From the NCBI GenBank assembly GCA_013041925.1, contig JABDRB010000001.1, positions 1 to 47,749 on the forward strand: DNA of 47,749 nt, given 5' to 3'. Below the pieces are notes generated by a model that was given only the letters and a program-made list of their open reading frames with translations, did no database searches and was not told where the DNA came from. Of this stretch, positions 4,101-21,335 are shown in pieces; position 1 is the first letter of the stretch; each line of letters opens with the position of its first letter. The position numbers and the translations under genes were made by a program. Source of the stretch: Akkermansiaceae bacterium (GTDB taxonomy: Bacteria; Verrucomicrobiota; Verrucomicrobiia; Verrucomicrobiales; Akkermansiaceae).

Positions 4101-4874
4101 CTATCTCTTCTTTTTAGCCAACTCCTCGTCACTGCGGGATTTCGCCCACTTGTAATACTCCTCGGCATTGATCACCTCCATGCTTCCTTTCATATTGGCA
4201 TGGGCCTCACCGCAGAGCTGGGCACAGACGACGTATGTTTCCATTTCTTCGACGGGTTTAAACCACATGGGGATTTCTTTACCGGGGATGCAGTCCTGCT
4301 GGATCCGCATTGGGACGATGGCAAAGTTATGGATCACATCCTTTGATGACACCTGGAGGATGCAGTTACGGTTCACGGGGAGTCGAAGCATCGTGGTCGA
4401 CATGAAGTCGTCATCGCCATTCGGGTCATCGGCATCGATGCCGAGCGTGTTATCCCCCGTGATCAGGGTGTTATCGGTGCGACCAAAAATGCCATCGTTT
4501 CCGGGGTAGTGGTAGATCCAGCTATACTGCTGGCCGACAACGCGCACGCGTGGTGCATCGGGGTCGTTGGCGACAACGCGGTCAAAGGTATCAGTGCGCT
4601 CGGCCCAGAGGGGAAATGCAAAGCCGAGCAAGAAGACGGCTTCCACAATGACCACCCCGATCTCAAGGTGCGTAGAGACATGGCTTTTTACACCGGTGTA
4701 GGATGGTTTTGGGTTACGTCTGTGCCAGAACTTAAAGAGGACAACGACAAAGAAAATCGACCAACCGACGAAGAGGACCAGCATCAGCCAGTGGATGACG
4801 GCGTTCATCTGATCGACCTGCTCACCGTGTTGGGAGTAGTTACTAGGGATGCCAAATAAATCGAGAATAGACAT
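4101..4874 (-). CDS. coxB: Cytochrome c oxidase subunit II (CuA)
   Basis: Subunit II of an aa3-type oxidase, which accepts electrons from cytochrome c at a dinuclear CuA centre on the periplasmic side. Two transmembrane helices lie at about residues 25-47 and 70-90, followed by a cupredoxin domain. CuA ligands are all visible: His182 (DVIHNF), then Cys217, Cys221, His225 and Met228 in CAQLCGEAHANM. The usual Glu between the cysteines is Gln; since that residue binds through its backbone this is probably tolerated. There is no N-terminal lipobox and no fused cytochrome c domain, so this is aa3 rather than caa3. It is unusually placed last in the operon, after two small membrane proteins, and is followed by a strong terminator. 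Confidence 0.95.
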   Translation of the reverse strand: MSILDLFGIPSNYSQHGEQVDQMNAVIHWLMLVLFVGWSIFFVVVLFKFWHRRNPKPSYTGVKSHVSTHLEIGVVIVEAVFLLGFAFPLWAERTDTFDRVVANDPDAPRVRVVGQQYSWIYHYPGNDGIFGRTDNTLITGDNTLGIDADDPNGDDDFMSTTMLRLPVNRNCILQVSSKDVIHNFAIVPMRIQQDCIPGKEIPMWFKPVEEMETYVVCAQLCGEAHANMKGSMEVINAEEYYKWAKSRSDEELAKKKR

Positions 4875-4913: not shown

Positions 4914-5111
4914 TTAATCGCGCAGGGAGGGGTCGAGTTGGGCGTTTTCACGTTTGGCCATGCGGGCAATGAAAAAAATGATTGCGGTGAGCATGGGGAT
5001 GATAATGACGAGCATCACGAGCATGGCGTAGCCAGCGGCGACGGAGTCGCGGTGCTGTTCGCCCACGCCCATACAGACGGAGCAGGCGAGTGTGTTCAGG
5101 AGTGAGGTCAT
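4914..5111 (-). CDS. Small single-TM protein with CxxC motif in cox operon
   Basis: A 65-residue protein with an N-terminal CSVCMG motif (a CxxC near residues 10-13), one strong transmembrane helix (about residues 27-48, VMLVIIIPMLTAIIFFIA) and a positively charged, probably cytoplasmic tail. The gap to coxB is 39 bp and to the upstream small gene 33 bp, so it is clearly part of the oxidase transcript. Short CxxC membrane proteins are common in oxidase clusters and could aid copper handling or be accessory subunits, but I cannot assign a named family. Confidence 0.7.
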   Translation of the reverse strand: MTSLLNTLACSVCMGVGEQHRDSVAAGYAMLVMLVIIIPMLTAIIFFIARMAKRENAQLDPSLRD

Positions 5112-5144: not shown

Positions 5145-5339
5145 TTAAATCTTCTGTGCTTTGCGATAAAAGCGGATGCCGTAGAGAGGAAGGAAGATGG
5201 CGGCTACCGCACAGGTGCTACCAAAGACCTTGAGGCCAGCGCCCGAGGCCGACTCAAGCACAAACGCCCACAAGACAACAAACACACAGAGCAGGGTGGC
5301 CAGTGTGATGAAGAGAAGATGAAAACCTTTGAGTGACAT
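5145..5339 (-). CDS. Small two-TM hypothetical protein in cox operon
   Basis: A 64-residue, very hydrophobic protein with two predicted transmembrane helices (about residues 6-28 and 34-54) and a basic C-terminus (RFYRKAQKI). It lies between coxD and the CxxC protein with short gaps (53 and 33 bp) on the same strand, so it is likely co-translated with the oxidase. Its size and hydrophobicity suggest an accessory oxidase subunit or assembly helper. No conserved motif is recognised. It is real by context rather than by homology. Confidence 0.65.
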   Translation of the reverse strand: MSLKGFHLLFITLATLLCVFVVLWAFVLESASGAGLKVFGSTCAVAAIFLPLYGIRFYRKAQKI

Positions 5340-5392: not shown

Positions 5393-5731
5393 CTATCGGC
5401 CGAAGAATCCTTCAAAATAGATCGGGTCTGAGAAAGCTAAACCGGTGAGTGCGATCAGGAAAAAACCGAACACAATCCCCATTCCAAAGAACCAGTAGAT
5501 CATTTTTTTCTCATGATTGAGGTGCATGAAGATCAGTGCCACCAGGGTGGCTTTAAACAGGGCGATGAGCAAACCGATCACCATGTCGGCGGTGCCAAAG
5601 CCACGTGAACCAAAGTCGAGAAACTCAAATTTGGCCACGGCAACCGTGAGGAGTGTGCAGGCAAAAAGTGTTGCCCCGATTAAGAGGTAAAGTTTGATAT
5701 GCCGTTTAATTGCTTCTGGAGAATCAGCCAT
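5393..5731 (-). CDS. coxD: Cytochrome c oxidase subunit IV (prokaryotic)
   Basis: A 112-residue, three-helix membrane protein of the prokaryotic subunit IV type. Helices are at about residues 15-35, 50-70 (DMVIGLLIALFKATLVALIFMHL) and 80-102, and the short HLNHEKK turn after helix 2 is characteristic of the family. The subunit helps stabilise or assemble the CuB centre but is not catalytic. ATG 5731 (MADSPEAIKRHIK) is chosen because the longer open frame to 5800 adds residues unlike the family and leaves no gap to coxC. It sits directly after coxC, the usual order. Confidence 0.85.
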   Translation of the reverse strand: MADSPEAIKRHIKLYLLIGATLFACTLLTVAVAKFEFLDFGSRGFGTADMVIGLLIALFKATLVALIFMHLNHEKKMIYWFFGMGIVFGFFLIALTGLAFSDPIYFEGFFGR

Positions 5732-5803
5732 GGAATCGTTACAGGTAATAGGTTTAGTCAGTGGGGTTATGTCAGAGAAAAGAAAAAAGATCAGGCGCAC
5801 ACT

Positions 5804-7444
5804 CTACATCAGATAGAGGATGGGGAAAAGGAATATCCACACCAAGTCGACAAAGTGCCAGAACAGGCCGCCAATTTCAACGCGGTTGGCGAGCCACTCG
5901 GGGTTCTCGTTATACATCTTACGACCAAAGAACAGGTAGTAGGCAAGGACCAAGGCGCCAGCGATGACGTGCAGACCATGCAAGCCGGTGATGGTGAAGT
6001 AGGTCGCGTAGTAGGTATTCCAGCGGGGGCTGAAAACCGACTCAAATCGCACCTGCTCACGTGGCACGGTGATCGAGGGAAATTCAATCTTGCTGTGATT
6101 TGGCCCAGCGAATCCTTCAATATCACCTGGGTAGAGGGCCAGGATTTCTGCGTGGCTCATTGTTTCCAGCTCCTCGATCGTTTTCTCCTGTAAACCGGCG
6201 ATTTCCTGCCAGTTGATCCGGTAGATATCATTCTCGGTGGGTTTGTGCCCCTTGTCCTTGATTCTTTCCTCGAGCTTGGCCGTGATCAGCTTGTGCTTCT
6301 CCCAGATGGCTTTCATGTTTTCATGTTGGAGCAGCCAGGAGTTGTTGATGGCCACCGTCGGGTCGATGCCTTTTTCCTCGGCCTTCATCACGGTGTGGCG
6401 GAAATCGATTCCATCGACATCGAGCCCGATCGAGCTGTCGGCGGCGATACCGAAGATCACCGTCTGATCCTTCAGTTTGAGGTTCGCTTTTTCGCCCTGC
6501 TTCGGGTTACTCAGCTTACCCCAATAGGGGTCGACGCTGATCTGAGCTTGGCCAGAAGCTGGCACAAAGGTGAGGCTGGGAACAGGAAGACGATACTGGT
6601 CTTTGCGCTCGGCCTTGCGGAGACTGATCTGCTTGACGAGAAGTTCCTTCACGTCCTTTTCCCAGTAGCGTTTACCGGGGAGGGCGGCGCGCACATCCAC
6701 CCACGCCTCGCGGTTGGCTGCGATATCAAGCTCGCTGTTGTTGGCAACGGCGTCGAGGAAATCGTCCTTCGCCTGCTCAATGAGTGCTTTGCTGATTTTT
6801 GCACCCTTGGCAAGCACGGCACCGCCGGAAAGCTTCACCTCATCGGCGAGGACAAATCCACCGTCATCATACTGAGCTCCGAGAACCTCATAGTAGATAT
6901 CATCGACGCGACGCAGATTGATCTGCACGCTCTCAGCGCTGATGTTTAAATTTTTCTTCGGCCCGTGTGCGCCATGGGCGGCGTGGCCATCATGATCACC
7001 ATGATCACCATGATCAGTGTGGTCAGCGTGTGCACCCTGCGGGTGGGCATGACCTTCAATCACGGTGTAATCATCCAAGCGGATCGCCTGGTGAGCAAAC
7101 TTCGCCTTATACTCGATGCCTTTCAGCACCATAAAGAGTGCGGCACAGACGATGGTGATCGTCATATAAATCTGAAACTTCCGCCACTGCCTCAGTTTGA
7201 GAGAAACCCAGGCAAAGACGACGGTCACCGACGAGCCAATCAGGACAAAGGTATTGATCAGACCAGGAAGCACAGGAAGTGTGCGCTCGGGCCATGGATA
7301 ATCTGCGTAAACACGCAAGAATACGTATCCAGAAAAGAGACCACCAAAGAGCATCACCTCGGAGGCGAGAAACAGCCAGATGGCAATCTTTGAGTTATTC
7401 AACCCGGTATCCTTCCGGGGTTCTACAATGTAGGGAATTTCCAT
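5804..7444 (-). CDS. coxC: Cytochrome c oxidase subunit III with a large histidine-rich insertion
   Basis: Subunit III of the aa3 oxidase, split by an insertion. Residues 1-112 hold three helices typical of the family (KIAIWLFLASEVMLFGG, a helix near 60-82, and FQIYMTITIVCAALFM to GIEY). Residues 468-546 hold the last two helices, with the signature TITGLHGLHVIAGA and the end FWHFVDLVWIFLFPILYLM. Between them lie about 355 hydrophilic residues where the family normally has about 20-25. The insertion opens with ten histidines between residues 132 and 160 (repeated GDH/ADH/AAH units) and continues as a charged, probably folded domain without membrane segments. In the known topology this loop faces the periplasm. 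The reading frame is intact. The gap to coxA is 33 bp. A metal-binding or cytochrome-docking role is inference. Confidence 0.92.
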   Translation of the reverse strand: MEIPYIVEPRKDTGLNNSKIAIWLFLASEVMLFGGLFSGYVFLRVYADYPWPERTLPVLPGLINTFVLIGSSVTVVFAWVSLKLRQWRKFQIYMTITIVCAALFMVLKGIEYKAKFAHQAIRLDDYTVIEGHAHPQGAHADHTDHGDHGDHDGHAAHGAHGPKKNLNISAESVQINLRRVDDIYYEVLGAQYDDGGFVLADEVKLSGGAVLAKGAKISKALIEQAKDDFLDAVANNSELDIAANREAWVDVRAALPGKRYWEKDVKELLVKQISLRKAERKDQYRLPVPSLTFVPASGQAQISVDPYWGKLSNPKQGEKANLKLKDQTVIFGIAADSSIGLDVDGIDFRHTVMKAEEKGIDPTVAINNSWLLQHENMKAIWEKHKLITAKLEERIKDKGHKPTENDIYRINWQEIAGLQEKTIEELETMSHAEILALYPGDIEGFAGPNHSKIEFPSITVPREQVRFESVFSPRWNTYYATYFTITGLHGLHVIAGALVLAYYLFFGRKMYNENPEWLANRVEIGGLFWHFVDLVWIFLFPILYLM

Positions 7445-7477: not shown

Positions 7478-9334
7478 TTAGTCGGCTTGCGATGATCCTG
7501 TGTCGGATTTTCCGACGGGTTTTTTCCACTGTGGGTAGAAATCTTCCTCGACCTCGGGGCGGGCGAATTCATACGAGCCGCGGTAGGCGATAGGTTCTTC
7601 GATGAAATTGCCGTGGCCGGGAGGTGTGGGTGTTGCCCACTCCAGAGAACAGGCGTTCCACGGGTTGTCACTCTCGACCTTTTTACCCCACTTGATGGAA
7701 CCGAAGAGGTTGATGATAAAGGGGATTTGGGCGGCGCAGAGAAGCCATGCCGACCATGACATCATGATGTTGAGGTCCAGATACTCGGCGACTGTTTTTC
7801 CGAAGACGTTGACGCTATCGGGGTCGGTGCTGAGGTAAGCATCACCCCCATTGTACCAGCGGCGGTGGAATCCTGCCATGCCCTGAATCAGCATCGGGAA
7901 AAACAAGGTGTTCATCAAGATCAAGGACGGCCAGAAGTGCAGGTGGTTGAGTGTGCGACTCATAAAACGACCCGTCACCTTCGGATACCAGTGATGGATG
8001 CCGGCAAAAATTCCAAACAAAATCCCTGGCGCAACCACATAGTGGAAGTGACCAATGACATAGTAGGTATCATGCAAGTGAAGATCCACGAGGTTGAATG
8101 CCAAGGGAAGTCCGGTGAGTCCGCCAATACCGAACATCGGCAAGAAGGCGCAAGCCCACAGCATCGGCGAGGTGAATCGAATCGATCCTCCCCAGAGTGA
8201 GATCAGCAAGCAGGTCAGCAAAATCACCGACGGAATCGAGATCAGCGTGGTGGTGGTCTGGAAGAAGGTGGATACCGCTGGCCCCATACCCGTCATATAC
8301 ATGTGGTGCGCCCAGACGATGAAGGAAAGGAATCCGAGCACCAGCACACCGTAAACCATCGACTTGTAGCCCCAGATCGGGCGGCGTGTGTTGACGGGGA
8401 TGATTTCCGCCACACAGGCGATGGCCGGGAGAAGCAAGACATAAACCTCAGGGTGTCCGAGGAACCAGAACAAGTGCTGGAACAACAACGGGCTACCACC
8501 ACCGGATGCGTCCGACAATCCAATCTGCTGATGGTACAATCCAGACGGCTGGAAGAAACTTGATCCAAACAAGCGGTCGACTAATTGCATAATCCCTGCG
8601 ACCTCAAGCGGCGGGAAGGAAAGCAAAAGAAGGAAGGCGGTAACCAGCATCGCCCACACCAAAAACGGCATACGCATCCATGTCATCCCCTTGGCGCGCA
8701 GGTTGATAATGGTGGTGATAAAGTTGACCGATCCCAACAAGGAGGAGGAAATCAGCATCACCAGGCCGAGCAGCCACTGGGTTTGACCCGTCCAGAACTG
8801 GTGCGGGTATTGGGCGTCATTGAAAAATGAGAGCGGCGGGTAGTTCGTCCACCCGGACTTGGCAGCGCCCGACTCCATGAAGAAGCTCGCGCACATCATG
8901 ATGCCACCCGTCAGATACAGCCAGTAACTCCACATGTTCAACTTCGGGAAGGCCATGTCCGGCGCCCCAATCTGCAGCGGCGTGACGTAGTTACCAAAGG
9001 CACCAAAACCAAGCGGCACAATACCGAGGAAAACCATGATCGTGCCGTGCATTGCGCCCAGCATGTTGTAGGTTGTCCCTGGGAGTTTTCCCTCGTTCAA
9101 CCACTGTGCCTTCCAGTCCTCGGTAAACAACCAGCTCATCCACTGAGGCAGCGGTTCGTTCGGGTAGGCAATACTCCAACGCATCACCATCATCAGATAA
9201 AAACCAAAGAGCAGGAAACACATCGCGGTGAGTCCATACTGAAGGCCGATCGTTTTGTGGTCGGTGGAGAAGATATACTTCTGAAGAAATCCAGGGTTGT
9301 GGTGATCGTGATGATCGTCGTGGTTGTCGCTCAT
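7478..9334 (-). CDS. coxA: Cytochrome c oxidase subunit I (A1-type heme-copper oxidase)
   Basis: Catalytic subunit of an aa3-type oxidase reducing oxygen to water and pumping protons. Haem and CuB ligands are present: His96 (GAMHGTIM), His294 and Tyr298 (WFLGHPEVY), His343-His344 (WAHHMYMTG) and the HFH pair in LHDTYYVIGHFHYVV. D-channel residues are conserved (FGNY, GAPDMAFPKLN) and Glu296 marks it as A1. The K-channel lysine is absent: the segment ISIPSVILLTCLLISLWGGSI aligns without gaps to the classical PTGIK helix and has Leu372 in the lysine position. The N-terminus is histidine-rich (DDHHDHH). About 15 extra residues lie before the HPEVY helix. It is first in its operon, with a 324-bp leader behind the upstream terminator. 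Confidence 0.96.
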   Translation of the reverse strand: MSDNHDDHHDHHNPGFLQKYIFSTDHKTIGLQYGLTAMCFLLFGFYLMMVMRWSIAYPNEPLPQWMSWLFTEDWKAQWLNEGKLPGTTYNMLGAMHGTIMVFLGIVPLGFGAFGNYVTPLQIGAPDMAFPKLNMWSYWLYLTGGIMMCASFFMESGAAKSGWTNYPPLSFFNDAQYPHQFWTGQTQWLLGLVMLISSSLLGSVNFITTIINLRAKGMTWMRMPFLVWAMLVTAFLLLLSFPPLEVAGIMQLVDRLFGSSFFQPSGLYHQQIGLSDASGGGSPLLFQHLFWFLGHPEVYVLLLPAIACVAEIIPVNTRRPIWGYKSMVYGVLVLGFLSFIVWAHHMYMTGMGPAVSTFFQTTTTLISIPSVILLTCLLISLWGGSIRFTSPMLWACAFLPMFGIGGLTGLPLAFNLVDLHLHDTYYVIGHFHYVVAPGILFGIFAGIHHWYPKVTGRFMSRTLNHLHFWPSLILMNTLFFPMLIQGMAGFHRRWYNGGDAYLSTDPDSVNVFGKTVAEYLDLNIMMSWSAWLLCAAQIPFIINLFGSIKWGKKVESDNPWNACSLEWATPTPPGHGNFIEEPIAYRGSYEFARPEVEEDFYPQWKKPVGKSDTGSSQAD

Positions 9335-9658: not shown

Positions 9659-10396
9659 TTACTCCGCAGCGGCCACAGGCAGCAGGGTCTTCGGATCGAC
9701 CATAGTTTGCGGGTCGAGCGGGGTGCCCTCGATATCCTTTTTATAATCGGCGTCGAGCTCGTTGGCGGTCATTTGCCCGCCATTGCGCTCTTTCGAGAGA
9801 TCAAGGGCATTCTGAGCCATTTCTAGGCTAACCAGCATCTCGCTCTTGTTGCCAAAGCTGTTGCGGATGAAATTCAGCACGCCGGCCAGCTGCTTGGCAT
9901 CCATTCCGGATCCCATGCTGGGCATGTTGCCATTGTAGGGTTTGCCATTCACGGTGATCGACTCATGCAGACCGTTGAGGATAATCATTGCTGGGCGCAA
10001 GCTCGGGCCCGTAACCCACTCGGAGTTCGCCAGCGGCGGGTAGGATGCATTGCCCTCACCCCCAGGCTGGTGGCAACCGGCACAAGCGGTATAGGCTTTT
10101 TGACCCGCCTTCATATGCGCATCAAGCGCAGCTTTCGGCTGCGTCGAGGCACTGGCGGCACCTGGCGCACTGGCGCGGACGTAATCTTTTCGGACAAAAT
10201 GATCGAAGTCGAAAAAGCTATTACCGATCACACCGCCGGCAACCAGAACGATCAGGGCACCACCAAGGATGACCCAGAGTGAGATCGGTTCAGCTCCTTC
10301 AGTGAACATGTGGTTTTCACGGTTCGCGGCAGTGGCGTCCGTGATCACATTTGTATTATCGTCGAGATCCGGTCGGTTTGTGGATGGGTCGGACAT
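9659..10396 (-). CDS. Membrane-anchored monoheme cytochrome c (CcoP-like)
   Basis: A 245-residue cytochrome with a cytoplasmic N-terminus, one transmembrane helix (about residues 38-60) and a periplasmic c-type domain. The single haem site is CAGCH at residues 105-109; MPSMGSGM further on offers the axial methionine. Helix, linker (FFDFDHFVRKDY) and cytochrome are arranged as in CcoP of cbb3 oxidases, but canonical CcoP carries two haems and this has one. The C-terminal 60 residues beyond the cytochrome fold are charged and unassigned. It is last in the unit that begins at actA, 43 bp downstream of the CcoO-like gene. Probable role: passing electrons between complex III and the oxidase. Confidence 0.8.
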   Translation of the reverse strand: MSDPSTNRPDLDDNTNVITDATAANRENHMFTEGAEPISLWVILGGALIVLVAGGVIGNSFFDFDHFVRKDYVRASAPGAASASTQPKAALDAHMKAGQKAYTACAGCHQPGGEGNASYPPLANSEWVTGPSLRPAMIILNGLHESITVNGKPYNGNMPSMGSGMDAKQLAGVLNFIRNSFGNKSEMLVSLEMAQNALDLSKERNGGQMTANELDADYKKDIEGTPLDPQTMVDPKTLLPVAAAE

Positions 10397-10439: not shown

Positions 10440-11168
10440 TTACTTGCCCTCGTCGTTTGGCTCGGGGCTGTGGTCCATGCTTTCGGGCATGGCATCATCA
10501 CGTTTTAAAGAAATCAGGTAGCTGGCGAGCACGCGGGCCTGCTCGGCGGGGACAATCTGCTGGCCAGTGTCGGTTTTCTGCGACAGCGCAAGGTGTGTTC
10601 CTTGGCCGTTGATGTCTTTGGCATCGAACATCTGCGGCTGGGACGGGCAGTTCGACCACGTCATATCGATTTTCTCACCCTGTTCACCGCGGCGCAGCTC
10701 ACTATTGCGGGGGTTGTGGAGGTGCTCGACGATCCACTGCTCGGCACTGATGCCCAGCTTAGCGGCATACGCCTCAGCGCGATGACCAAAGTTGCTGAGA
10801 TCGGGGCCCATGCGAGTCAGCCCGATCTGAGCGTATTGCTCACCATCAAAATCATTGACGCTGGTTTCACGGCGGGTATCGCCATCTTCATTGACCACAC
10901 CCGCGATGTCATTACGCCAAATTTGGTGACCGAGGTAAGTCGGGCGGATCAGCTGGGAGTGGCAGGTGTAGCAGCCGTTGGAGGCATAGATTTCGGCACC
11001 ATTGAGGATACGTCCGGATGTCTGGCGTTGGTAATACGCCGCATCTTCCTCGGCGCTCATCTTCACAGGTGGAAGTGCTCCCATTTTTGCCACAGGAATG
11101 GCAATCATGAACATCCATGCCACAGCAAAGCTGGCGAGCATCCCGATGAGAAAAGTTTTAAGGGTCAT
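10440..11168 (-). CDS. ccoO: CcoO-like membrane-anchored monoheme cytochrome c
   Basis: Homologue of cbb3 oxidase subunit II. An N-terminal helix (about residues 5-27) anchors a periplasmic cytochrome whose haem site is CYTCH at residues 66-70, in the characteristic context NGCYTCHSQLIRPT. A second CcoO hallmark, RMGPDLSNFG, follows at about residue 118. The region that normally carries the axial methionine (NPR...MPAY in classical CcoO) is altered: NPRNSELRR leads to WSNCPSQPQMFD with an extra loop, so the sixth ligand is uncertain. It is flanked by CcoN-like (44 bp) and CcoP-like genes. Since its CcoN partner appears non-catalytic, this is probably an electron carrier rather than an oxidase subunit. 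Confidence 0.85.
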   Translation of the reverse strand: MTLKTFLIGMLASFAVAWMFMIAIPVAKMGALPPVKMSAEEDAAYYQRQTSGRILNGAEIYASNGCYTCHSQLIRPTYLGHQIWRNDIAGVVNEDGDTRRETSVNDFDGEQYAQIGLTRMGPDLSNFGHRAEAYAAKLGISAEQWIVEHLHNPRNSELRRGEQGEKIDMTWSNCPSQPQMFDAKDINGQGTHLALSQKTDTGQQIVPAEQARVLASYLISLKRDDAMPESMDHSPEPNDEGK

Positions 11169-11212: not shown

Positions 11213-12700
11213 CTAGGCACCGGCGCTTTCAAGCTCGTCACCTTCGAGCCCGTGCGGGCCAATGGCTGAGTGATCACGACGCAGTAGGGTCGGATGGTTG
11301 CTGCGACGACCAAGCCGAAGCCACATCAAAGTGAGGTGAAGGAAAAAATACAGGTTGGCGTATAGGATGGCACACCATGCCACGGTGGTTCCCACCGCAT
11401 ACGGGTAGGTGCTCATGACCGCCTGCTTCCACGGTTGGATATGATTTTCTTGTGCCGCACCCTGCTGGAAGGCACCCAGTAATGTGCAGAACAAAACAAT
11501 CAGAAGCACACCATACACAGAAAACCAGAAGTGCGTCCGGATCAATCGGCGCGATAGCCATTCGCGACGTGTGATCCGAGGCACGATAAAGTAAATCGCC
11601 CCAAACATGCACATGCTGAAGAAGCCGTAGAGTGCTAGCACCTCATACCCGTAACCCGCCAAGCTGAACTGCGTGTATCGCGCTGCCGCTGGATGCGCCA
11701 GAATCACACCCAGCACGGCCACACCAATCATGCCAAAGATGCCGGCGACGGTAAAACGGAGTGACGGGCTATGCGATGCCAGGTTGGCTTGCCCCTTGGC
11801 CGTCTTGAGGATGTTGACGCCGGCGAAGAGCAACGGCACGGCAGCGAGCATCGTTGCGGCTGCGCCCATATTTTGCAGGAAAAGTGGGATCGGAGCCCCC
11901 ATGACCACGTGCATGCCCGCCCATGGAGCGATGATAGCGAGCGCCCAAAAACCACCGACTGAGTAGGCGTAGTTGTAAATGGGGCGCGCGGTGATCTTTG
12001 CGGTGATGTAGTAGGCACTGGCAATCGCGATGGGAGCAAAAAATAAGAAGACCATCGCCTGACGGAACCATCCATTGATCGCCGCAGCCATCAGTGGGTG
12101 GACATCAAAGACATGGATATAAAGGTTGGCCGTGAGATAAACCCACGGGAACCAAAGGATCGCCCCCAGCAGATACCATTGCGAGATGTAGATGTGATCA
12201 CCACGGCGGACGCGGAAGGCAATCAATGACCAAATTGCAATGACCGCATAGGCGGCAAGCAGCACAGGCCAGACAAACGTGGGAAACTCCATCCAGTGCT
12301 TTCCGGTTCCGTGACCGAAAATAATCCCCGCTGTGCCAATCAGGACAGCCAGGTTCCAGATGTGACCTGCCACCAGTAAGGTGCCAGCATTCTTGCTCGG
12401 CTGGCGGGACAGACGCGCCATCAACCAGATCAGCACACCCAAGCCAGCTTGGGCACCCCATCCGTAAACCAGTGCATTGATATGCGCAGGAAAGGTGCGG
12501 CCGTATTGCAGCCATGCACAATCACCGAGAAATCCCGGGCTGTGGGTCTTGGCCGAAGCAATGATACCAAGCAGCAATGACACTGCGAGCCACGCGGCTC
12601 CGCTGGTAAAGAAAAACATCACAGGATGACGCAGCGATCGGTCGATTTCCGAACGCAATTGCGTGTCCTCAGTCGTAGATTCGTGACTTAATGTGGGCAT
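11213..12700 (-). CDS. CcoN-like membrane protein lacking oxygen-site ligands
   Basis: A 495-residue, about 12-helix protein recognisable as the subunit I fold of cbb3 oxidases (YGRTFPAHINALVYGW; GAIYFIVPRI). It keeps the helix-2 histidine (His73) and one helix-7 histidine (His264 in WAGMHVVMGAPIP, where CcoN has WAGPHHLHYTALP). The helix-6 CuB histidine of WWYGHNAV is replaced (INGWFRQAMV), the second helix-7 histidine is Val265, the active-site tyrosine position is Ala258, and the HxH of helix 10 that binds both haems is absent (SLAGYGYEVLALYGFF). It therefore should not bind CuB or the high-spin haem, and the low-spin haem would lack one ligand. Oxygen reduction is unlikely; a structural anchor for the neighbouring cytochromes is inferred. 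It may be annotated automatically as cbb3 subunit I. Confidence 0.85.
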   Translation of the reverse strand: MPTLSHESTTEDTQLRSEIDRSLRHPVMFFFTSGAAWLAVSLLLGIIASAKTHSPGFLGDCAWLQYGRTFPAHINALVYGWGAQAGLGVLIWLMARLSRQPSKNAGTLLVAGHIWNLAVLIGTAGIIFGHGTGKHWMEFPTFVWPVLLAAYAVIAIWSLIAFRVRRGDHIYISQWYLLGAILWFPWVYLTANLYIHVFDVHPLMAAAINGWFRQAMVFLFFAPIAIASAYYITAKITARPIYNYAYSVGGFWALAIIAPWAGMHVVMGAPIPLFLQNMGAAATMLAAVPLLFAGVNILKTAKGQANLASHSPSLRFTVAGIFGMIGVAVLGVILAHPAAARYTQFSLAGYGYEVLALYGFFSMCMFGAIYFIVPRITRREWLSRRLIRTHFWFSVYGVLLIVLFCTLLGAFQQGAAQENHIQPWKQAVMSTYPYAVGTTVAWCAILYANLYFFLHLTLMWLRLGRRSNHPTLLRRDHSAIGPHGLEGDELESAGA

Positions 12701-12732: not shown

Positions 12733-13587
12733 TTACTTTTTACCGGTAAGCCACTCGGCGATTAATTTGATTTCTTCATCACTGACACCAGCCATGATTC
12801 CTTTCATCGCGGCGCTTTGACCATTCGAGCGGGTGCCATCCTTGATCGCTTTCATCTGATCAATGGCGTATTGGGTATTTTGTCCGGCCAGACGGGGGTA
12901 AAGGGGCATAATGGGCGAATTGGCATCCATTCCGTGACACGCGATACATCCTTTGCTCAGGAACAATGCCTTACCAGCATCATCGGCCAAGGTTGGCATG
13001 GCAGGCTTGAGACCCGCCATCCAATCGGCCAGCGTTTTCTGCTCCTGCTCACTGACCAGCGCCATCATCGGCTTCATCACCGCGCTCTGACCATTGGTGC
13101 GTTTCCCTTCATGAAAGTCTTTCATTTGCGCCAGCAGATACTCGGCATTCTGACCCGCCAACTTTGGATAAGCAGGTGAAATTGGGGTATTGGCATCGGC
13201 ACCGTGACAGGTTGCACAGGTCTTATCGGTAAAGAGTTTAAACCCTTCACCGCCACCCGTGCTGTTGCTCAGGGCATCCATGGCTTTTTGGTGGGACGCC
13301 GTGCCAGGCACAAACTGACCACTCGCCTTGGGCGCGCTCTTGATCTCGCCAGCCACCTTTTCCAAGCTCCCCGCAGCAGGCAGCATCGCCGATTGGACAG
13401 TATCCACCTCGGATTTAATCTCATGTCGGTCTGCAGCACGTAGGCTCTCGACGTCCGGACGATCACACGTTGCCCAGTCAACAACGGTGGACATCAGGCC
13501 GAAAAGACCGAAGCAAGCAAGACCCCACCAGAACGCGTTAAAGCGGCGCAGTGGTGTGTCGCGGTGATTGGAATACTGTGTTGGCAT
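12733..13587 (-). CDS. Membrane-anchored diheme cytochrome c (c4-like)
   Basis: A 284-residue protein with an N-terminal anchor helix (about residues 18-38), a linker of about 75 residues and two tandem cytochrome c domains of the c4 kind. Haem sites are CATCH at 124-128 and CIACH at 214-218. Each is followed by the same block (YPKLAGQNAEYLLAQMKDF; YPRLAGQNTQYAIDQMKAI) and NGQSA-MK methionine segments, showing an internal duplication. It lies 50 bp after actF and 32 bp before the CcoN-like gene. It probably receives electrons from the ActA/ActE haems and passes them on towards the oxidase. Confidence 0.88.
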   Translation of the reverse strand: MPTQYSNHRDTPLRRFNAFWWGLACFGLFGLMSTVVDWATCDRPDVESLRAADRHEIKSEVDTVQSAMLPAAGSLEKVAGEIKSAPKASGQFVPGTASHQKAMDALSNSTGGGEGFKLFTDKTCATCHGADANTPISPAYPKLAGQNAEYLLAQMKDFHEGKRTNGQSAVMKPMMALVSEQEQKTLADWMAGLKPAMPTLADDAGKALFLSKGCIACHGMDANSPIMPLYPRLAGQNTQYAIDQMKAIKDGTRSNGQSAAMKGIMAGVSDEEIKLIAEWLTGKK

Positions 13588-13637: not shown

Positions 13638-14990
13638 TTAGTTATACAAGTTAGCGGATTCGAGGATGCGTGGATCGCGGTGTGGATAGAGGCTGTTCTT
13701 GGTGAACGTGCGGAGGTAAACAAAGAGGAAAAAAGCGCCGACGGTGACAAACGCGAGGATGTCGAGCCAGATGACGCTGCCATTCGGGTAGAGGCTTGGG
13801 CCGTTAGCGCCGTGCATCGTCAGCGATGGGCCACGCTCGGGCGCCACAATGATGTAGTGGTCGAGCGCATGCAGAGTGAACAGATAGAGCGTGATCGGAA
13901 TCATCAGGCCCGGCTTCTTTTTGACATCAGATCGGATCAGGAAGAGGAAGGGCAAGGCAAAGTGACCAAAGACAAGCGCGATATTGGCCAAGTTCCAGTT
14001 CCCTGTGTTACGCAGCAGGAAGTAGCTGGTTTCCTCCGTGATGTTGGCATACCAGATCAGGAAAAACTGGGAAAACGTCACGTAGGCCCAGAAAACCACA
14101 AAGGTAAAGGTGAGCTTACCCATGATGTGATGGTGCTCGGGGCTCATCACCGTTTGCAGGTAACCCGCACGACGTAAAACGATGGATGTCAGGATCAGCA
14201 ACGCCATGCCATTCAGGGCACAACCCGCAAAGAAATAAACGCCATACATCGTCGAAAACCATTTGTAATCGAGAGCTTTTAACAAATCGAAGGCCAGGAA
14301 GGTGACCGTCAACGCAAACAATGGCAAAATCACGGCACAAAGTTTACGAGCCAAGATCAATCGCTCCGTGCCTGGGTTCGGGTCGTTGTCCTGAGCCACG
14401 GAGATTTTTTTCAGCAGCAAAATTGATCCGCCAAAAACGACAAAGTAGGCAATCATGCGTCCCAACCAATCTGGCAGGTTCATGTAAAATGTTTTGGCGT
14501 AGAGCATGTGGTCGAACTGGCCATGGCTATGGTGAAGCACCTCCTTGGCATTGGCATAAGAACTCGGGCTACCGAGCAGCTCCCGGTGTCTGTTCATCCA
14601 CTCAAACAAGTGCTGCTGCACCTCTGGGAAAAGAAAAGGAATGGCCAGAATCCCCATCCATGGGAAAACACAGGCAAGGTTTTCCATCAATCGACGCACG
14701 GCAACACCCCAACCCGAGTTGGATACGTGGTGAAGTAGTAACCAAAAGGCACCCCCGAGTGGAAAACTTACAAAAAAGGCAAACGCATACAGCCATGAGT
14801 AGGCATATCGGCCAGCGACACCATCCTGCGGTGTGTTCGTGGCTTCATTGCCACTGAACAACAAATAGGCGCTGACGATCAGTCCGATTAAAGCGACGAC
14901 GCCGCTCACCATCATAGGCTTGGACAGCTTGCCCTTCTCGATGTGCTCCCCGTCCGCGGGGATGTCTTGGGATGTGATAAAGTGACTCAT
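13638..14990 (-). CDS. actF: Alternative complex III subunit ActF
   Basis: NrfD-like integral membrane subunit of alternative complex III, the cytochrome bc1-unrelated quinol:cytochrome c/HiPIP oxidoreductase. The 450-residue protein has about ten hydrophobic helices and a conserved-looking HSHGQFDHMLYAKTFYMNLP segment. It sits in the canonical sixth position after ActE (48 bp away). ActF resembles ActC but lacks a well-established quinol pocket and is thought to complete the membrane core. Length and position agree with known ActF proteins. Confidence 0.92.
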   Translation of the reverse strand: MSHFITSQDIPADGEHIEKGKLSKPMMVSGVVALIGLIVSAYLLFSGNEATNTPQDGVAGRYAYSWLYAFAFFVSFPLGGAFWLLLHHVSNSGWGVAVRRLMENLACVFPWMGILAIPFLFPEVQQHLFEWMNRHRELLGSPSSYANAKEVLHHSHGQFDHMLYAKTFYMNLPDWLGRMIAYFVVFGGSILLLKKISVAQDNDPNPGTERLILARKLCAVILPLFALTVTFLAFDLLKALDYKWFSTMYGVYFFAGCALNGMALLILTSIVLRRAGYLQTVMSPEHHHIMGKLTFTFVVFWAYVTFSQFFLIWYANITEETSYFLLRNTGNWNLANIALVFGHFALPFLFLIRSDVKKKPGLMIPITLYLFTLHALDHYIIVAPERGPSLTMHGANGPSLYPNGSVIWLDILAFVTVGAFFLFVYLRTFTKNSLYPHRDPRILESANLYN

Positions 14991-15038: not shown

Positions 15039-15677
15039 TTATTTGCCCGCCGAATCGGCACGTGCTATTTGCAGGGCCCGGACGTAGGCGATGATTGCCC
15101 ATCGATCGTTGACGGGGATGTTGTATCCGTAACCACCCATCAGGCCTTTGCCCTTGGTGATCGTTTCGAACATCTTACCATCGGGGTAGGTCGACTTGGG
15201 AAAGTTCATTAGATCCGCAACCGTTGGGATCCCGATCACTGCGACCGTCCCCTTGCCGTTGCCGGCCTCGCCATGACAGGGCATACAGGAAATCTTATAC
15301 CGCTCCTCGCCGTGTCGAAGGAAGCCCGCGGTGGAGTCGTCACTCAGTCCAAGCTCCACAGGCATTCCATCACCGTAGGCGTCACCCATCATGCCAGTAT
15401 CGATGTAGAGCTCACTGTTGCCGAAGCTTGGCTCTGCGCCGTAGGCGTGCTGCACGCCGTCAGGCTCAAACCCGCGTGGCACCGTGCCCGCTACCGGTTG
15501 ACGTGAGCCCATGCCATCAGCAAAAAAGGCACTGGGACGCTGCGTCTTGATGTAATCCTGGTCGTCCATGTCCGGGAATAACCGCAGTGGCGTGCCACTG
15601 AAATGGTCACCACGGAAGCCAAAGAAACCAATGACCATGGTCACGATCAGGGCGAATGCTAAAAAGAAGTATCTCAT
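15039..15677 (-). CDS. actE: Alternative complex III monoheme cytochrome ActE
   Basis: Periplasmic monoheme cytochrome c of alternative complex III. The N-terminus has a hydrophobic signal/anchor (about residues 3-21), followed by a DQDYIKTQRPSAFFADG stretch typical of ActE. The single haem site is CMPCHG at residues 131-136, followed by the GNGKG loop; MGGYGYNI downstream may supply the methionine ligand. ActE hands electrons from the ActA haems to the soluble carrier or oxidase. Gaps to actD and actF are 36 and 48 bp. The 212-residue length is normal. Confidence 0.92.
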   Translation of the reverse strand: MRYFFLAFALIVTMVIGFFGFRGDHFSGTPLRLFPDMDDQDYIKTQRPSAFFADGMGSRQPVAGTVPRGFEPDGVQHAYGAEPSFGNSELYIDTGMMGDAYGDGMPVELGLSDDSTAGFLRHGEERYKISCMPCHGEAGNGKGTVAVIGIPTVADLMNFPKSTYPDGKMFETITKGKGLMGGYGYNIPVNDRWAIIAYVRALQIARADSAGK

Positions 15678-15713: not shown

Positions 15714-16271
15714 TTAATCGCCCGGCTCTTCAACCAGTTCGAGATTTGTGCCACCGGCATCTTCCAGTAGCGCTTTTGTTTCCTCCGATGAAAACCGGGG
15801 GTCGCGTGCTTCAATAGCGATGAAAAAACCATCGTCGGTGACCCGATGAAACTGACGACTTTCAAAGAGCGGATGATTCAGGCGAGGTAACTGCATCAAG
15901 GCGAGCAAACCAAAAAGCGTCGTAAATCCTGAAAATAGAATCGTCAGCTCAAACATGATCGGAAAAAATGCCGCCGTGGTAAAGATGTTCGCTGGCTTCG
16001 CCTGCACCACCGTCGGGTAAATAGCCACCTGCGTCGTGTAGGCGAGTGTGAAGGCGGTGATAATCCCCAGAGTTCCGCCACAGAAGACAAGATAAGGAAG
16101 AATCGATTTCTTCATCCCCATGGCTTTATCCAGTCCGTGGATAGGATAAGGCGAATAGCAGTCCCACTTTTTGTGCCCTGCATCGCGGACCTTCTCCGCC
16201 GCCTTGTAAAGGGCTGAAGCACTCTTGAACTCGGCAAGGTATCCGTAAACGCGTTTAGCTGTCATACTCAA
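15714..16271 (-). CDS. actD: Alternative complex III subunit ActD (DUF3341)
   Basis: A 185-residue DUF3341 protein. It has a soluble N-terminal part with the family motif CYSPYPIHGLDKAMG (about residues 37-51), then two transmembrane helices (about residues 59-82 and 100-125) and a soluble C-terminus ending in an acidic tail. ActD is a peripheral membrane subunit of alternative complex III with no cofactor. It is 33 bp downstream of actC in standard gene order. Confidence 0.92.
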   Translation of the reverse strand: MSMTAKRVYGYLAEFKSASALYKAAEKVRDAGHKKWDCYSPYPIHGLDKAMGMKKSILPYLVFCGGTLGIITAFTLAYTTQVAIYPTVVQAKPANIFTTAAFFPIMFELTILFSGFTTLFGLLALMQLPRLNHPLFESRQFHRVTDDGFFIAIEARDPRFSSEETKALLEDAGGTNLELVEEPGD

Positions 16272-16304: not shown

Positions 16305-17771
16305 TTAGCCTTGAAGCTCATGTTGATAAGCGGCGGTCGACGTCGCGCCCTGGTCGTCCAGCGCTTCCTTATCGTCGTGGTGTGGATCACTCTCAGGCAG
16401 AGTCCATTTCACCTCGGCAATGTTGATGCAGGGGAGGAATCTGAGGAACAGGAGGAACAAGGTGAGAAACAGCCCGATGGTGCCGACGTAGGTCATGATA
16501 TCCACCCAGCTCGGGTTGTAGTATTTCCAGTCGCCTGGCAGCCACATCCGCGGCAGCGTGGTGACAATGATGACAAATCGCTCAAACCACATACCTGCGT
16601 TCACACACATGCAGACGGCCATCACAATCCACAGGTTTTCGCGGCAATACTTAAACCAGAATAACTGCGGGGAGAGCACGTTGCACGACATCATCGCGAG
16701 ATACGCCCACCAATACGGGCCGGCGATTCGATAGAAAAATGCGGCACCCTCAAACTTGGCACCCGAGTAAAATGCGACAAAGAGCTCCATCAAATACGCG
16801 TATCCGACGATGGTTCCGGTCAAGAGAATGATCTTGGTCATGTTCTCGATGTGCTTCATCGTGATCAGATCGTGCAGCCCATAGATGAAACGCGCTGGGA
16901 TCATGATGGTCAACACCATCGCAAATCCACCAAACACAGCACCCGCAACAAAGTAGGGTGGGAAAATCGTGGTGTGCCAACCCGGCACCACCGAGGTGGC
17001 AAAGTCAAACGAGACCACCGAGTGCACTGAGAGCACCAGCGGGGTGGAAAGGGCAGCAAGCAGGAGGTAAGCGACTTCGTAGTGACTCCACTGACGGTTT
17101 CCGCCACGCCATCCGAGCGAGAAGATGCCGTAAAGAAGTTTACGCAGGCCGGGCTTCGCGCGGTCCCGGATGGTGGCAAGATCGGGAACCATTCCGAGGT
17201 ACCAGAAAATCAGGGAGATTGTAAAGTAGGTGGAAATGGCAAACACGTCCCAGAGCAGCGGCGACTTAAAGTTTTGCCAGATCGCATTCGCATTCGGGAT
17301 TGGAGCAAGAAACCAAACCATCCAAATACGGCCGACGTGGAACATCGGATAAATACCGGCACAGACCACCGCAAAGATCGTCATCGCCTCGGCTGCTCGG
17401 TTAATCGACGTTCGCCAGTTCTGGCGCGTCAGGAAAAGGACTGCCGAAATCAGCGTGCCAGCATGTCCAATACCAATCCAGAACACGAAGTTCACAATCG
17501 GCCACCCCCACATCGCGCGGTTGCTGTTACCCCAAACACCAACACCAGTGGACACAAGGTAAAAAAGACCTCCTCCTACACCCACAATGGCAATGATCAC
17601 ACTCGGAATAAAAAGCATCCACCAAATCGCAGGTTGCTTGTTTTCCAAAATGCCACAGATGCGCTCTGTAATCCAGTTATAGGAACGGTCGTTGAGAATC
17701 AGCTTCTCACGCTCCATGACAGGAATCACGGGCTTGTTTGGGTCTTTTTCTATAGTCGTTTCGTGCGACAT
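16305..17771 (-). CDS. actC: Alternative complex III quinol-binding subunit ActC
   Basis: NrfD/PsrC-family membrane protein, about ten helices and 488 residues. In solved ActC structures this subunit carries the quinol-oxidation site on the periplasmic side. Family-typical segments include [20 protein letters not shown] (residues about 85-105) and [11 protein letters not shown]. The histidine of GHAGT and aspartate/arginine positions near the quinol pocket appear retained. The gap to actB is 129 bp, the largest inside the act unit, and contains a CAGAAT/ATTCTG hairpin (17807-17824) without a T-tract on the coding strand. Confidence 0.94.
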
Positions 17772-17900: not shown

Positions 17901-20900
17901 TTAGTGCATCGTTATTGTTGCGCGCCCGACCCCTTTGGCATCAGGCATCGCCGGATTCGGGTTTTTAACCCGCGCAAGGTAAGAGGTGCGTGGCAGCGTG
18001 CCAATGTAGTTGAGCAGATCGTAAGCACGATTCAGAATCGGCTTGTTGTCCTCGCTCTTGATCCGGCGGATGACCGACTTCGGATCCATCAGGTTACCAA
18101 AGACAATCGCACCCGACGGGCAGGCGTCCTGACAGGCTGACGTGACGCTGTCCGTCTTCGGACGCAATTCACTGTCAGCAATCTTCACATCAGCGGACGG
18201 CACGCCAAGGCGGGTCACCTTTTTCTTAAAGTTGGCTTTCACCTTCCCTTTGGCCGATTGAATGCGCTGCACGCAGTAGGTGCATTTCTCGATCACACCG
18301 CGCATACGGACGGTGACGTTCGGGTTGCGTTGGAGGCTGGGAGCCTCGCCAACCGCGGTCTTACCCGCAGGCCCTTTGTAGAGGTTTTTCTCGATGAGGG
18401 GGTTGCGTTTATTGTAATCGAAGAAATTGAATCGACGCGCTTTGTAGGGGCAGTTACTGGCGCAGTATCGGGTTCCGATACAGCGGTTATAGGCCATCGT
18501 ATTCAGGCCGTCTTCTGAGTGCACGGTTGCATTCACCGGGCAAACCGTTTCACAGGGTGCCGCCTCGCAGTGTTGGCAAGCAACCGGCTGAGGGATCATC
18601 TCGGGATTGTCCTCATCGAAGATCGGGTCTCCATGGCTATCGACTAGCTTGTGGCCTTTGTCATCGTATGTTTCCTTAGCCGCAAAGTAGCGATCCATGC
18701 GGATCCAGTGCATTTCACGTCCTATGGCGACTTGCTCTTTACCCACGACGGGGATGTTGTTTTCAGCCTGACAGGCAACGAGGCAGGCATTACAACCGAT
18801 GCAGTTGTTTAGGTCGATCGTCATCGCCCATTGTTGACGCTCGTCAAACAGGTGCTTGTCGGCTCTCGCTTTATCGTGCCAGGTAGACGACCCCTGTGGC
18901 TTGTATAGCGAGATGTTTTCCGGGGCGTGTGAGTCCATGCCCTGTTTTTTCACCCCCTCAAGTTGCTGCGCAAAATCTTTGCCGTGACCATGGCTGGCAT
19001 CGGTCGACTCCGTGGAAATTTCACGGGCGAGCGCGCGGCCATACATTGCGTGGTGCTCTTGGGTCATGGCGATGGAATAACGTTTCTTGACGTCTTCCGC
19101 CTTGGCACCGGTCGCTAGGTAGGGTGTTTCCGCCTTACGTAGGGAGTAGGCATTAAACCCTCGGTTCACACTGACCACGCTGACGTCTTTTTCATTGAAT
19201 GGGCCACGTTTTAGTTCGTCGTGTTGGTCAAACCCTTGTCCGTATCCCAACGAAAGCGATACCACGTTTTCAGCATGACCAAATCCAATCATGATCGGCA
19301 CTTCAAGCGACTGACCATTCACGGTGAGTTTGACCATCGGGTTGGTGTGATCCCTGCCCTCCTTATCCTGGGGGTGGGCACCCGCATTTTTTTCGACATC
19401 GAGCAAACCGTAGATTTTCCCGGACGGCTCGAGCTTGAGGATGGCATCGTAAACACCCATTTCCTTGGCCGTCTTCGGTGAAACCATCGCGACGTTGTCC
19501 CAGCAAACTTTGCTGATGGGATCCGGGGCTTCCTGAAGCCAGGCATTGTTTGCATAGCGACCGTCATAGAGCGATCCATCGGTCGAGAAGATCACCTCAA
19601 GGCTGTCAAGCGTCGGCGCCTTTGGTACCTCGATTGTGATCGGCCCGACACCTTTCGGCGACGCTGCGGCATAGGTGGATTTTTTCCAGAATCCGTCACG
19701 GAGGACTTGCAGCCAGCTCTTGGTCGAATCGTCGGCCAAGGTCGAGAACGTCGCACGAACTGCATCGTACGATGGGGATGTTTTTTCGCCATCCTTGGCG
19801 GAGTCAAACAACTGGCCATCCAGGACAGCCAGTAAGAGGTCGAGCTCAGACACACCATTGTAAAGTGGTAAAATCATCGGCTGCACGACCGTGTAGGATC
19901 CGTGCGCAGAGCGTGCATCACTCCAGCTCTCAAGGAAATGAGCGGCGGGCACATGCCAATCGGCAGCGTGAGCAGATGCGTCATTGCGCAGGCCGAGGTG
20001 CACCACGGTGGTGCTCTCAGCCGCAGCCGCAAAATCAGGAGCATCGTAAACCGGGTTGGCCGGCGTTAGGAGAATGAGGGCATCCAGTTGTTTGGCATTC
20101 AGCGCCTTCTTAAGCGCGTCCATATCACCGTATTCGCCACGCTCGGTGAGAACCGGTTTCAGAGTCTTGCTGTAATTGCCAAGTGCTGTGTTGATGGCGA
20201 TGCAAATATCTTGCAGCTCCCTGCTCTGGCGAGATCCTGCGAGCACAACCGACTTGCCGGCATTCGCCTTGAGGTCTTTCGCGCACTCGAGCGCCCACTT
20301 GGTCTGCTCGGCGGTAAGAGACGGGCCGCTCGTGACGGTCACCGAGGCGCCAAGGTGATTGGCAATGGCCGCGGCGATGGCGGGAATCTGACTCGGGGCG
20401 ATACGCATCCGGTGGTCTGCCATGCCCCCCGTGAGGCTAAACCCACCTTCGACGACGTAGAGGCGATTCATCGCGTTCTTGTCTGCCTTTTTGGTGTAAT
20501 CAGCTCCTTCGATAAAGCGGTTTTTGTAAAACCCGCTGACCGGCCCTTGCTGGTCGAGCTCAAGAAAATCACTGTCTAAGGAAAGCACCACCTTGGCCGT
20601 GGAAAAATCGGCAACCACATCCACACCCGCACCAAATGCGGCGGCATGGGCTTGCTTGCGATCTTCACCCGTCAGGGGCTCATAACTAAAGAACTTCGCA
20701 CCTGAGAACTTCGCCTTAAGGTCTTTGACAAGGCGACTCCGGGTTGGCGACTCATCTTCACCGAAGACAAATCCGATCGCGGCGTCAGGCTTGGCGATCT
20801 CAGCGAGTGCGGCTTCAAACTCGACTCGGGATTTCTTTTCCCCCTTGGCTAAAAACTCACGGGACCGCGCCGGGTCATACATGTCCAGGATCGACGCCTG

Positions 20901-21335
20901 GGTAAAGGAATCCGTGCCCGCACGCTTTTGAAATAGCTTGTTCGGCTCCAGCTTCGTCGGCCGACCGTCGTGGGTCGTTACCACCAAGGGCACCGCACCG
21001 CCGGCACGCGGCATCGAGGTCGCATAGTGAAGTGGCTTTCCGGGCACGCTCCACTCAGGGGACTCGGTAAAGGGGACAATCAAGCTCTCAGGGCGCCGGC
21101 AGGCAGCAAGCCCCATACCGGCAAGTGCCGAGGAGGCCCCCATCAGCTTCATGAATGAACGACGAGAAACTTCGCGTTCCTCCTCCGTCTCCATCTGGGA
21201 TGATCCCTCGACAAATTCACGGTCGAGCGCGTCTTGAAAGCGTTCTGTGCTTTCTAGTTCGCCGAGGCTACGCCAGATTTTGGTTCCTCCCTGGTTCACA
21301 GGGGTCTCTGGCTGGTTGGTCTTCCGATTGCTCAT
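17901..21335 (-). CDS. actB: Alternative complex III ActB (molybdopterin-like and iron-sulfur fusion)
   Basis: A 1144-residue fused subunit. A twin-arginine signal (SRRSFMKLMGASSALAGMG, about residues 57-75) is followed by a molybdopterin-oxidoreductase-like domain (about 90-800), which in this family has lost the cofactor. Residues 835-1144 form an iron-sulfur domain with four cysteine groups: CIGCNACLVAC near 845, CQHCEAAPCETVCP near 920, CIGTRYCASNCP near 952, and CTYCVQRI near 1018 with CQDACPSGAI. This is the usual three [4Fe-4S] plus one [3Fe-4S] set. It relays electrons from the ActC quinol site to the ActA haems. Its order and length match known ActB. Confidence 0.95.
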   Translation of the reverse strand: MSNRKTNQPETPVNQGGTKIWRSLGELESTERFQDALDREFVEGSSQMETEEEREVSRRSFMKLMGASSALAGMGLAACRRPESLIVPFTESPEWSVPGKPLHYATSMPRAGGAVPLVVTTHDGRPTKLEPNKLFQKRAGTDSFTQASILDMYDPARSREFLAKGEKKSRVEFEAALAEIAKPDAAIGFVFGEDESPTRSRLVKDLKAKFSGAKFFSYEPLTGEDRKQAHAAAFGAGVDVVADFSTAKVVLSLDSDFLELDQQGPVSGFYKNRFIEGADYTKKADKNAMNRLYVVEGGFSLTGGMADHRMRIAPSQIPAIAAAIANHLGASVTVTSGPSLTAEQTKWALECAKDLKANAGKSVVLAGSRQSRELQDICIAINTALGNYSKTLKPVLTERGEYGDMDALKKALNAKQLDALILLTPANPVYDAPDFAAAAESTTVVHLGLRNDASAHAADWHVPAAHFLESWSDARSAHGSYTVVQPMILPLYNGVSELDLLLAVLDGQLFDSAKDGEKTSPSYDAVRATFSTLADDSTKSWLQVLRDGFWKKSTYAAASPKGVGPITIEVPKAPTLDSLEVIFSTDGSLYDGRYANNAWLQEAPDPISKVCWDNVAMVSPKTAKEMGVYDAILKLEPSGKIYGLLDVEKNAGAHPQDKEGRDHTNPMVKLTVNGQSLEVPIMIGFGHAENVVSLSLGYGQGFDQHDELKRGPFNEKDVSVVSVNRGFNAYSLRKAETPYLATGAKAEDVKKRYSIAMTQEHHAMYGRALAREISTESTDASHGHGKDFAQQLEGVKKQGMDSHAPENISLYKPQGSSTWHDKARADKHLFDERQQWAMTIDLNNCIGCNACLVACQAENNIPVVGKEQVAIGREMHWIRMDRYFAAKETYDDKGHKLVDSHGDPIFDEDNPEMIPQPVACQHCEAAPCETVCPVNATVHSEDGLNTMAYNRCIGTRYCASNCPYKARRFNFFDYNKRNPLIEKNLYKGPAGKTAVGEAPSLQRNPNVTVRMRGVIEKCTYCVQRIQSAKGKVKANFKKKVTRLGVPSADVKIADSELRPKTDSVTSACQDACPSGAIVFGNLMDPKSVIRRIKSEDNKPILNRAYDLLNYIGTLPRTSYLARVKNPNPAMPDAKGVGRATITMH

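Follow-up and report, generated by a model that had tools for sequence, protein, structure and literature searches.

The cytochrome c oxidase subunit III (CtaE) of a member of the Akkermansiaceae, order Verrucomicrobiales, carries a large domain between transmembrane (TM) helices 3 and 4 that is predicted to fold and to face the periplasm. This insert is real, and it elaborates, in one lineage, a respiratory subunit that is very conserved. ctaE is part of a row that includes the genes for alternative complex III (ACIII) and for a cbb3-like module that has lost most of its cofactor ligands, and it is plausible, as a testable reading, that the insert serves as a docking platform in a respiratory supercomplex. 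The DNA analysed, referred to here as the window, comprises 47,749 nucleotides (positions 1-47,749 of contig JABDRB010000001.1, assembly GCA_013041925.1, Akkermansiaceae bacterium).

The ctaE gene and its inserted domain

The ctaE frame (Table 1) encodes 546 amino acids and contains no internal stop. As the initial annotation held, both halves of the protein keep family signatures: the Pfam COX3 model (PF00510) scores CtaE as a whole at 62.2 bits (curated cut-off 23.8), and both matching stretches were above the cut-off in the genome search. The profile is split at its position 180 (77-180, then 180-255), with 353 residues in between, and the AlphaFold2 model places residues 117-472 between the third and fourth of five predicted helices (18-45, 58-83, 87-116, 477-513 and 515-545), in agreement with the annotated loop of about 355 residues. 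Relatives in the PDB align only with the two ends of CtaE, and the N-terminal MEIPY is mostly kept among homologues. At E 0.001, the genome of 3.28 Mb yields no COX3 match other than CtaE. With both family halves, five predicted helices and an operon shared with subunits I, II and IV, it belongs to the five-helix subunit III of A-type haem-copper oxidases, the typical member of which has a short TM3-4 loop where CtaE has about 355 residues.

The model of the whole protein has a mean pLDDT of 85.3. Taken in blocks of ten, residues 171-440 reach 89-98, whereas residues 1-60 have only 47-60 and the 16 C-terminal residues about 60. Despite this low confidence, residues 1-60 and 531-546 are covered by the COX3 family match. 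Structure prediction, which the initial annotation had proposed as a check, gave a confident fold for the insert modelled alone (pLDDT 91.8, pTM 0.85). The model contains strands near both ends of the insert (119-133, 166-176 and 457-470), a second strand set (290-347) and helices spanning 182-279 and 349-435. Each strand set has a D-x-[TS]-x3-G motif. The first of the two lies near the start of the portion that is common to short-loop relatives, while residues 324-347, around the second, are the best conserved portion of the insert (D326, T328, G332, D344 and D347). The profile comparison of the two motifs with hhalign (E 0.0003, probability 40%, 22 columns) is only suggestive of a likeness between the two strand sets. 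In the alignments (one of 76 rows, the window and 75 of 77 translated homologues, and one of 67 rows), the conserved residues of the insert are chiefly Asp, Gly and Thr plus one His. No Met is conserved, every measured insert has zero or one Cys, and H132 is the only nearly invariant His beyond the membrane edge.

A known domain was considered as the source of the insert and rejected, as searches of Pfam, NCBIfam and PDB sequences gave no convincing match. For 67 members searched against Pfam, the best single-member E value was 0.01, and among 25 of 35 families listed none was matched by more than two members. The best PDB sequence match had an E value of 0.2, and NCBIfam yielded a single weak match, between the His run and a model of His-Xaa-Ser repeats (E 0.001, below the cut-off). 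Foldseek and VIA-align returned no structure match spanning the domain, a result that is not evidence of a new fold; the best Foldseek match (E 0.21) was to an unrelated chain. The two insert ends could be superposed on the small Sm protein 5mki_A over 56 residues (rmsd 2.1) with a Z of 3.5, which is far under the trust level of the tool. Sm/LSm (SH3-like) small barrels have a D-x-[GT]-x3-G strand pattern, similar to that of the insert, but they show no sequence match to it and leave most of the domain unmatched. We infer that the insert ends form a small SH3/Sm-like barrel atop helices 3 and 4.

The membrane side of the insert can be read from its charge. Averaged over 76 homologues, the TM2-3 and TM4-5 loops have net charges of +3.2 and +1.6, and the TM1-2 loop and the insert have -1.2 and -11.5, whereas the N-terminal stretch is neutral on average and therefore uninformative for topology. 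This pattern indicates that the insert lies outside, consistent with the known topology of the COX3 family (five or seven helices, N-terminus inside), which puts the TM3-4 loop on the periplasmic side. The periplasmic position originally assigned to the loop is thus supported.

Distribution and origin of the insert

In a protein search of 117 relatives, ctaE was found in 107 among the matches listed, with frames of 434-695 amino acids where contig ends did not cut them. Six of the ten relatives with no ctaE match belong to genus g3 and also have no COX3 match at all. When named genomes were scanned, 574 places were confirmed, the best 80 of which were analysed, so that the sample is biased towards close relatives. 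Their titles name Verrucomicrobiota groups and list Persicirhabdus sediminis, Haloferula rosea, Rubritalea marina, Rubritalea profundi, Roseibacillus ishigakijimensis and two Verrucomicrobium strains. Three of these 80 loci are partial (L056, L108 and L130). The other 77 were translated without encountering a stop, and 76 were measured, L131 being left out. The TM3-4 loop of these 76 homologues has 274-458 residues (median 355, including the window), and no member of the order among the rows measured has the gene without the insert. An assembly artefact, which should be absent from close relatives, is ruled out by the occurrence of the gene in 107 of 117 relatives (among the matches listed) and in cultured strains among the named genomes. 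Five metagenome assemblies titled Akkermansia muciniphila (L059, L075, L085, L088 and L097) also carry ctaE, which g3 genomes lack; these titles may be wrong. The g3 genomes (e.g. G015, G039 and G048) have no COX3 match and at most a distant ActC-like protein, at about 41-49% identity.

The core of the insert has a dN/dS of 0.05-0.18, computable for 4 of 15 pairs, whereas the membrane part stands at about 0-0.05; the values are rough, as several pairs approach saturation. As far as substitution ratios can tell, they show an insert that is under constraint yet changes faster than the membrane part. Its identity to most rows outside the genus is 15-38%.

A profile of the insert alone, run against 145 genomes of the phylum as the initial annotation had recommended, found the insert in only two, both Verrucomicrobiales, while COX3 itself occurs in 43. 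The 15 other genomes of the same family in this set belong to genus g3 and have no ctaE. At E 0.01, no stand-alone copy of the domain was detected in the 145 genomes, the organism's own included. The nearest homologues outside the order are the subunit III proteins of methanotrophs, four genomes of family f8 that all have a pMMO match. Their profile gap at the TM3-4 loop comprises 73-79 residues, and one genome of family f10, which aligns less clearly, has a gap of 97. The usual loop length of about 20 residues given in the initial annotation therefore holds for many family members, but not for these nearest relatives, with 73-97. The f8 loops begin with KFHHYG and then GQEITGH and end with IRWWSNF, like the large insert, but the middle is missing, and they thus represent only the outer part of the domain. 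Three of the methanotroph genomes have the same act-cco-cta gene order as the window.

In a tree of the membrane part, built from 37 rows chosen by hand and including 8 unlinked rows, all 16 rows with a long insert group in a single clade (100/100). Four short-loop rows stand just outside it, and both groups together are separated from the rest (98/95). The long insert is shown on this 37-row tree, a reconstruction from sequence, to have arisen once in the Verrucomicrobiales. The domain probably grew by nesting from a loop of 73-79 residues with the same ends; the second barrel and the helical hairpins would then have been nested in the Verrucomicrobiales inside the barrel formed by those ends.

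Two further observations concern subunit III in other genomes. In family f9 (L150, L152 and L154-L160), extra residues, probably membrane-spanning, are seen by eye between TM4 and TM5. L133 (G156:C3:10325-11092) is a full-length COX3 match in which nine TGA codons are read through, and it has the appearance of a mitochondrial contig within a bacterial assembly.

The act-cco-cta gene row

In the window, actA-actF are followed by genes for a dihaem cytochrome and for CcoN-, CcoO- and CcoP-like proteins, and then by ctaD, ctaE, ctaF and ctaC (Table 1). ACIII and oxidase genes are thus adjacent, as is expected for ACIII-oxidase supercomplexes. For Verruconatronum, ActABCDEF is listed with Cox I-IV directly after it (PMC13274419). 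Two short frames between ctaF and ctaC (4914-5111 and 5145-5339, reverse strand; 65 and 64 amino acids) resemble small membrane proteins.

Table 1. Features of the act-cco-cta row and of CtaE; positions refer to the window, residues to CtaE.
Feature	Position	Strand	Basis
ctaC, oxidase subunit II, CuA motif, no cytochrome c domain	4101..4874	-	PF00116; no CxxCH; PDB subunit II matches
ctaF, oxidase subunit IV	5393..5800	-	COX4_pro PF03626
ctaE/coxC, cytochrome c oxidase subunit III	5804..7444	-	ORF; PF00510 in two stretches; AlphaFold2 model
Inserted domain, residues 117-472, between TM3 and TM4	6029..7096	-	Helix borders of model
Second D-x-T-x3-G motif and VDxxDFR, residues 324-347	6404..6475	-	Alignments; hhalign
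His-rich linker, residues 132-160	6965..7051	-	Sequence count; homologue rows; model; congeners
First D-x-[TS]-x3-G strand motif, residues 125-132, DYTVIEGH	7049..7072	-	Alignments
ctaD, oxidase subunit I	7478..9334	-	PF00115; TIGR02891 below cut-off
CcoP-like monohaem cytochrome c	9659..10396	-	PF00034/PF13442; one CxxCH
CcoO-like monohaem cytochrome c	10440..11168	-	PF02433; one CxxCH
CcoN-like subunit without full haem b3, haem b and CuB ligand set	11213..12700	-	Alignment to 3mk7 CcoN; 64 order sequences
Dihaem cytochrome c	12733..13587	-	PF00034 twice; two CxxCH
actF	13638..14990	-	PDB ActF 6f0k_F, E 1.2e-50
actE, monohaem	15039..15677	-	PF13442; one CxxCH; named by operon place
actD	15714..16271	-	PF11821 ActD, E 1.2e-59
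actC	16305..17771	-	PDB ACIII subunit C 6f0k_C, E 1.2e-179
actB	17901..21335	-	Fer4 domains; size and place
actA, pentahaem, short form	21393..22121	-	5 CxxCH; PDB 8k9e_A, 6f0k_A

Leaving the dihaem gene aside, the row from actE to ctaC is complete in 55 of the best 80 of 574 loci, and 20 are cut by contig ends; the dihaem cytochrome gene is seen in about half of the 55. A strict operon linkage of the insert to the act genes was considered, and it is not absolute. Five loci (L075, L085, L088, L097 and L110) keep the insert with 4.9-6.1 kb upstream of ctaD that contain no act or cco genes, and in the case of L075 (a contig of G052) ActC is on another contig. At the genome level, ActC accompanies ctaE in 106 of 107 genomes; it was not found in G116, which is 87% complete.

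Across the phylum sample, the 52 subunit III matches show a break of 13-353 residues at the TM3-4 loop in 13 of 17 genes within 20 kb of ActC, compared with 1 of 35 others; descent is uncorrected in this count, so that the Fisher value (5e-8) serves as a description only. No break is seen in four of the ACIII-linked genes, or in five if a weak ActC-like match of 21% identity in G235 is counted. The ActC list excludes distant g3 matches, the weak matches of G235 and G236, second paralogues of f8 genomes, and the split ActC matches of G149, G217, G228 and G243, which are on other contigs or more than 60 kb from subunit III. The mitochondrion-like match G156:C3 was kept among the 35 unlinked genes.

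In the supercomplexes of Flavobacterium johnsoniae and R. marinus, a cytochrome c domain of ActA or of subunit II links the complexes. No such built-in domain is present here: subunit II has the CuA motif in 75 of 75 sequences and the haem c motif CxxCH in none of them, and ActA of the window, with five CxxCH, has the length of short ActA chains. One haem motif each is found in the CcoO-like (64/64) and CcoP-like cytochromes (65/66).

The CcoN-like protein of the window lacks most ligands when aligned to CcoN of 3mk7. Across 64 sequences of the order, among them that of the window, the haem b3 position and the second haem b position never have a His. The three CuB positions are mostly replaced, with a His in 1 (7 if shifted by one column), 5 and 4 sequences, while 58 retain the first haem b His. 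The full His ligand set of a cbb3 oxidase (haem b, haem b3 and CuB) is therefore not found in this subunit. The genome encodes a separate CcoN-CcoO fusion with full motifs, and a CcoN match is present in 40 of the 145 phylum genomes. Outside the order, 13 of 27 genomes with CcoN beside ActC keep the ligand motifs and 14 do not; these genomes were chosen by score and interest, and the counts represent no rate. Three of the 14, pMMO-bearing methanotroph genomes (L196, L197 and L198), contain an ACIII-adjacent 'cbb3' subunit I without ligand motifs. Verrucomicrobial methanotrophs have been described as having ACIII next to a cbb3 oxidase, and the accessible portions of the two reports contain no mention of ligand loss (PMC6688271, PMC8498564). 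A strict link between ligand-less CcoN and the insert can be dismissed, because 14 of the 27 outside genomes are ligand-less and several of these groups have a short-loop subunit III.

Possible roles of the insert

Since subunit III meets ACIII in known ACIII-oxidase supercomplexes, the insert may act as a periplasmic docking platform, a reading that we consider about evenly balanced between right and wrong. On the outer face of the membrane, it would hold the aa3 oxidase against ACIII and/or the ligand-less cbb3-like module, and electrons would pass from the ACIII haems to CuA without a diffusing carrier. With a subunit II that has no haem c motif and a short ActA, the monohaem CcoO- and CcoP-like cytochromes would be the natural bridges between ACIII and the oxidase. 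A close parallel is the ACIII-aa3 supercomplex of F. johnsoniae (6BTM), an aa3 oxidase working with ACIII, in which contact is made via a five-helix subunit III comparable to CtaE; the accessible part of that report mentions no such insert (PMC8361435). According to PMC5928083, ACIII contact in R. marinus is likewise mediated by subunit III, and ActA of F. johnsoniae carries an extra cytochrome c domain. ActA of the window, in contrast, is the short form.

Docking is favoured by an insert that is conserved, predicted to be folded and of one origin, by the act-cco-cta row and by the concentration of loop breaks near ActC. The initial annotation had suggested that the domain binds copper or zinc, delivers metal to the oxidase or docks the cytochromes of the neighbouring operon, and docking is the best fit of the three, with a contact that would still be conjectural. 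Several findings count against it. Four ACIII-linked subunit III genes show no break and the counts are tied to descent, while the ligand-less module does not demand the insert, since CcoN ligands are also lost alongside a short-loop subunit III. The five loci that keep the insert with no act or cco genes upstream of ctaD, and the fast evolution of the insert, which is more like that of a loosely bound part than of a tight interface, weigh against docking and speak for its main rival, a lineage-specific assembly or stability cap that packs on subunits I-III of its own oxidase and is unrelated to ACIII. The anchoring of the domain ends directly on helices 3 and 4 would also suit such a cap. As extended loops occur mainly in subunit III genes that are linked to ACIII, and subunit III is the known ACIII-facing subunit, we regard the cap as possible but doubtful. 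A near-neutral expansion that has no specific role, and that is tolerated in a loop facing the solvent, would explain the spread of loop lengths (274-458 in measured rows, and uncut frames of up to 695 amino acids among the matches listed) and the low identity between families. It is improbable in view of the 77 translated rows with no stop, the low dN/dS that the insert core shows in the four computable pairs of 15, the confident fold with nearly invariant positions, and a single origin with no measured member of the order having lost the insert from the gene.

Metal binding is the least probable of the readings, and we would be surprised if it proved correct. It proposes that the insert binds or stores copper or zinc via its His-rich start and hands the metal to CuA/CuB or buffers periplasmic copper. 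The ten His among the 29 residues 132-160 and the periplasmic place beside a copper enzyme fit this proposal, and the initial count of His was correct. The run is, however, no feature of the domain: the most His-rich 29-residue stretch has 2-7 His in each of the other 76 proteins measured (drawn from the best 80 of 574 places), and at least eight only in the window. Nine of ten aligned congeners lack most of the linker, while one (L007) has a linker of similar length with fewer His. The run has a pLDDT of about 40 and is predicted to be disordered; the best reading is a variable linker that is private to the species and has no general role. The conserved Asp, Gly, Thr and single His, with no conserved Cys or Met, form no His/Cys/Met cluster of the kind expected for a metal-binding domain. 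A copper or zinc domain as the general role is thus rejected on the basis of homologue His counts, conserved residues and congeners, and the metal function initially suggested is not supported.

Extending the docking reading, we tentatively propose that the Verrucomicrobiales may possess a three-part supercomplex, in which ACIII is joined by a haem- and copper-less cbb3-type scaffold for the two monohaem cytochromes, and by an aa3 oxidase clamped to both by the nested subunit III domain. This arrangement is possible, with the odds against it. No description of such a supercomplex was found in the literature, and none of an insert in subunit III of Verrucomicrobiota, in a search confined mostly to non-subscription papers.

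Subunit III is a highly conserved respiratory protein, and a folded domain that is bigger than its own membrane core and kept throughout an order is unusual. The operon with ACIII and a ligand-less cbb3-like subunit would provide a concrete and testable case of an oxidase turned scaffold. The loss of ligands in three pMMO-bearing genomes calls into question whether the ACIII-adjacent 'cbb3' is the source of high oxygen affinity.
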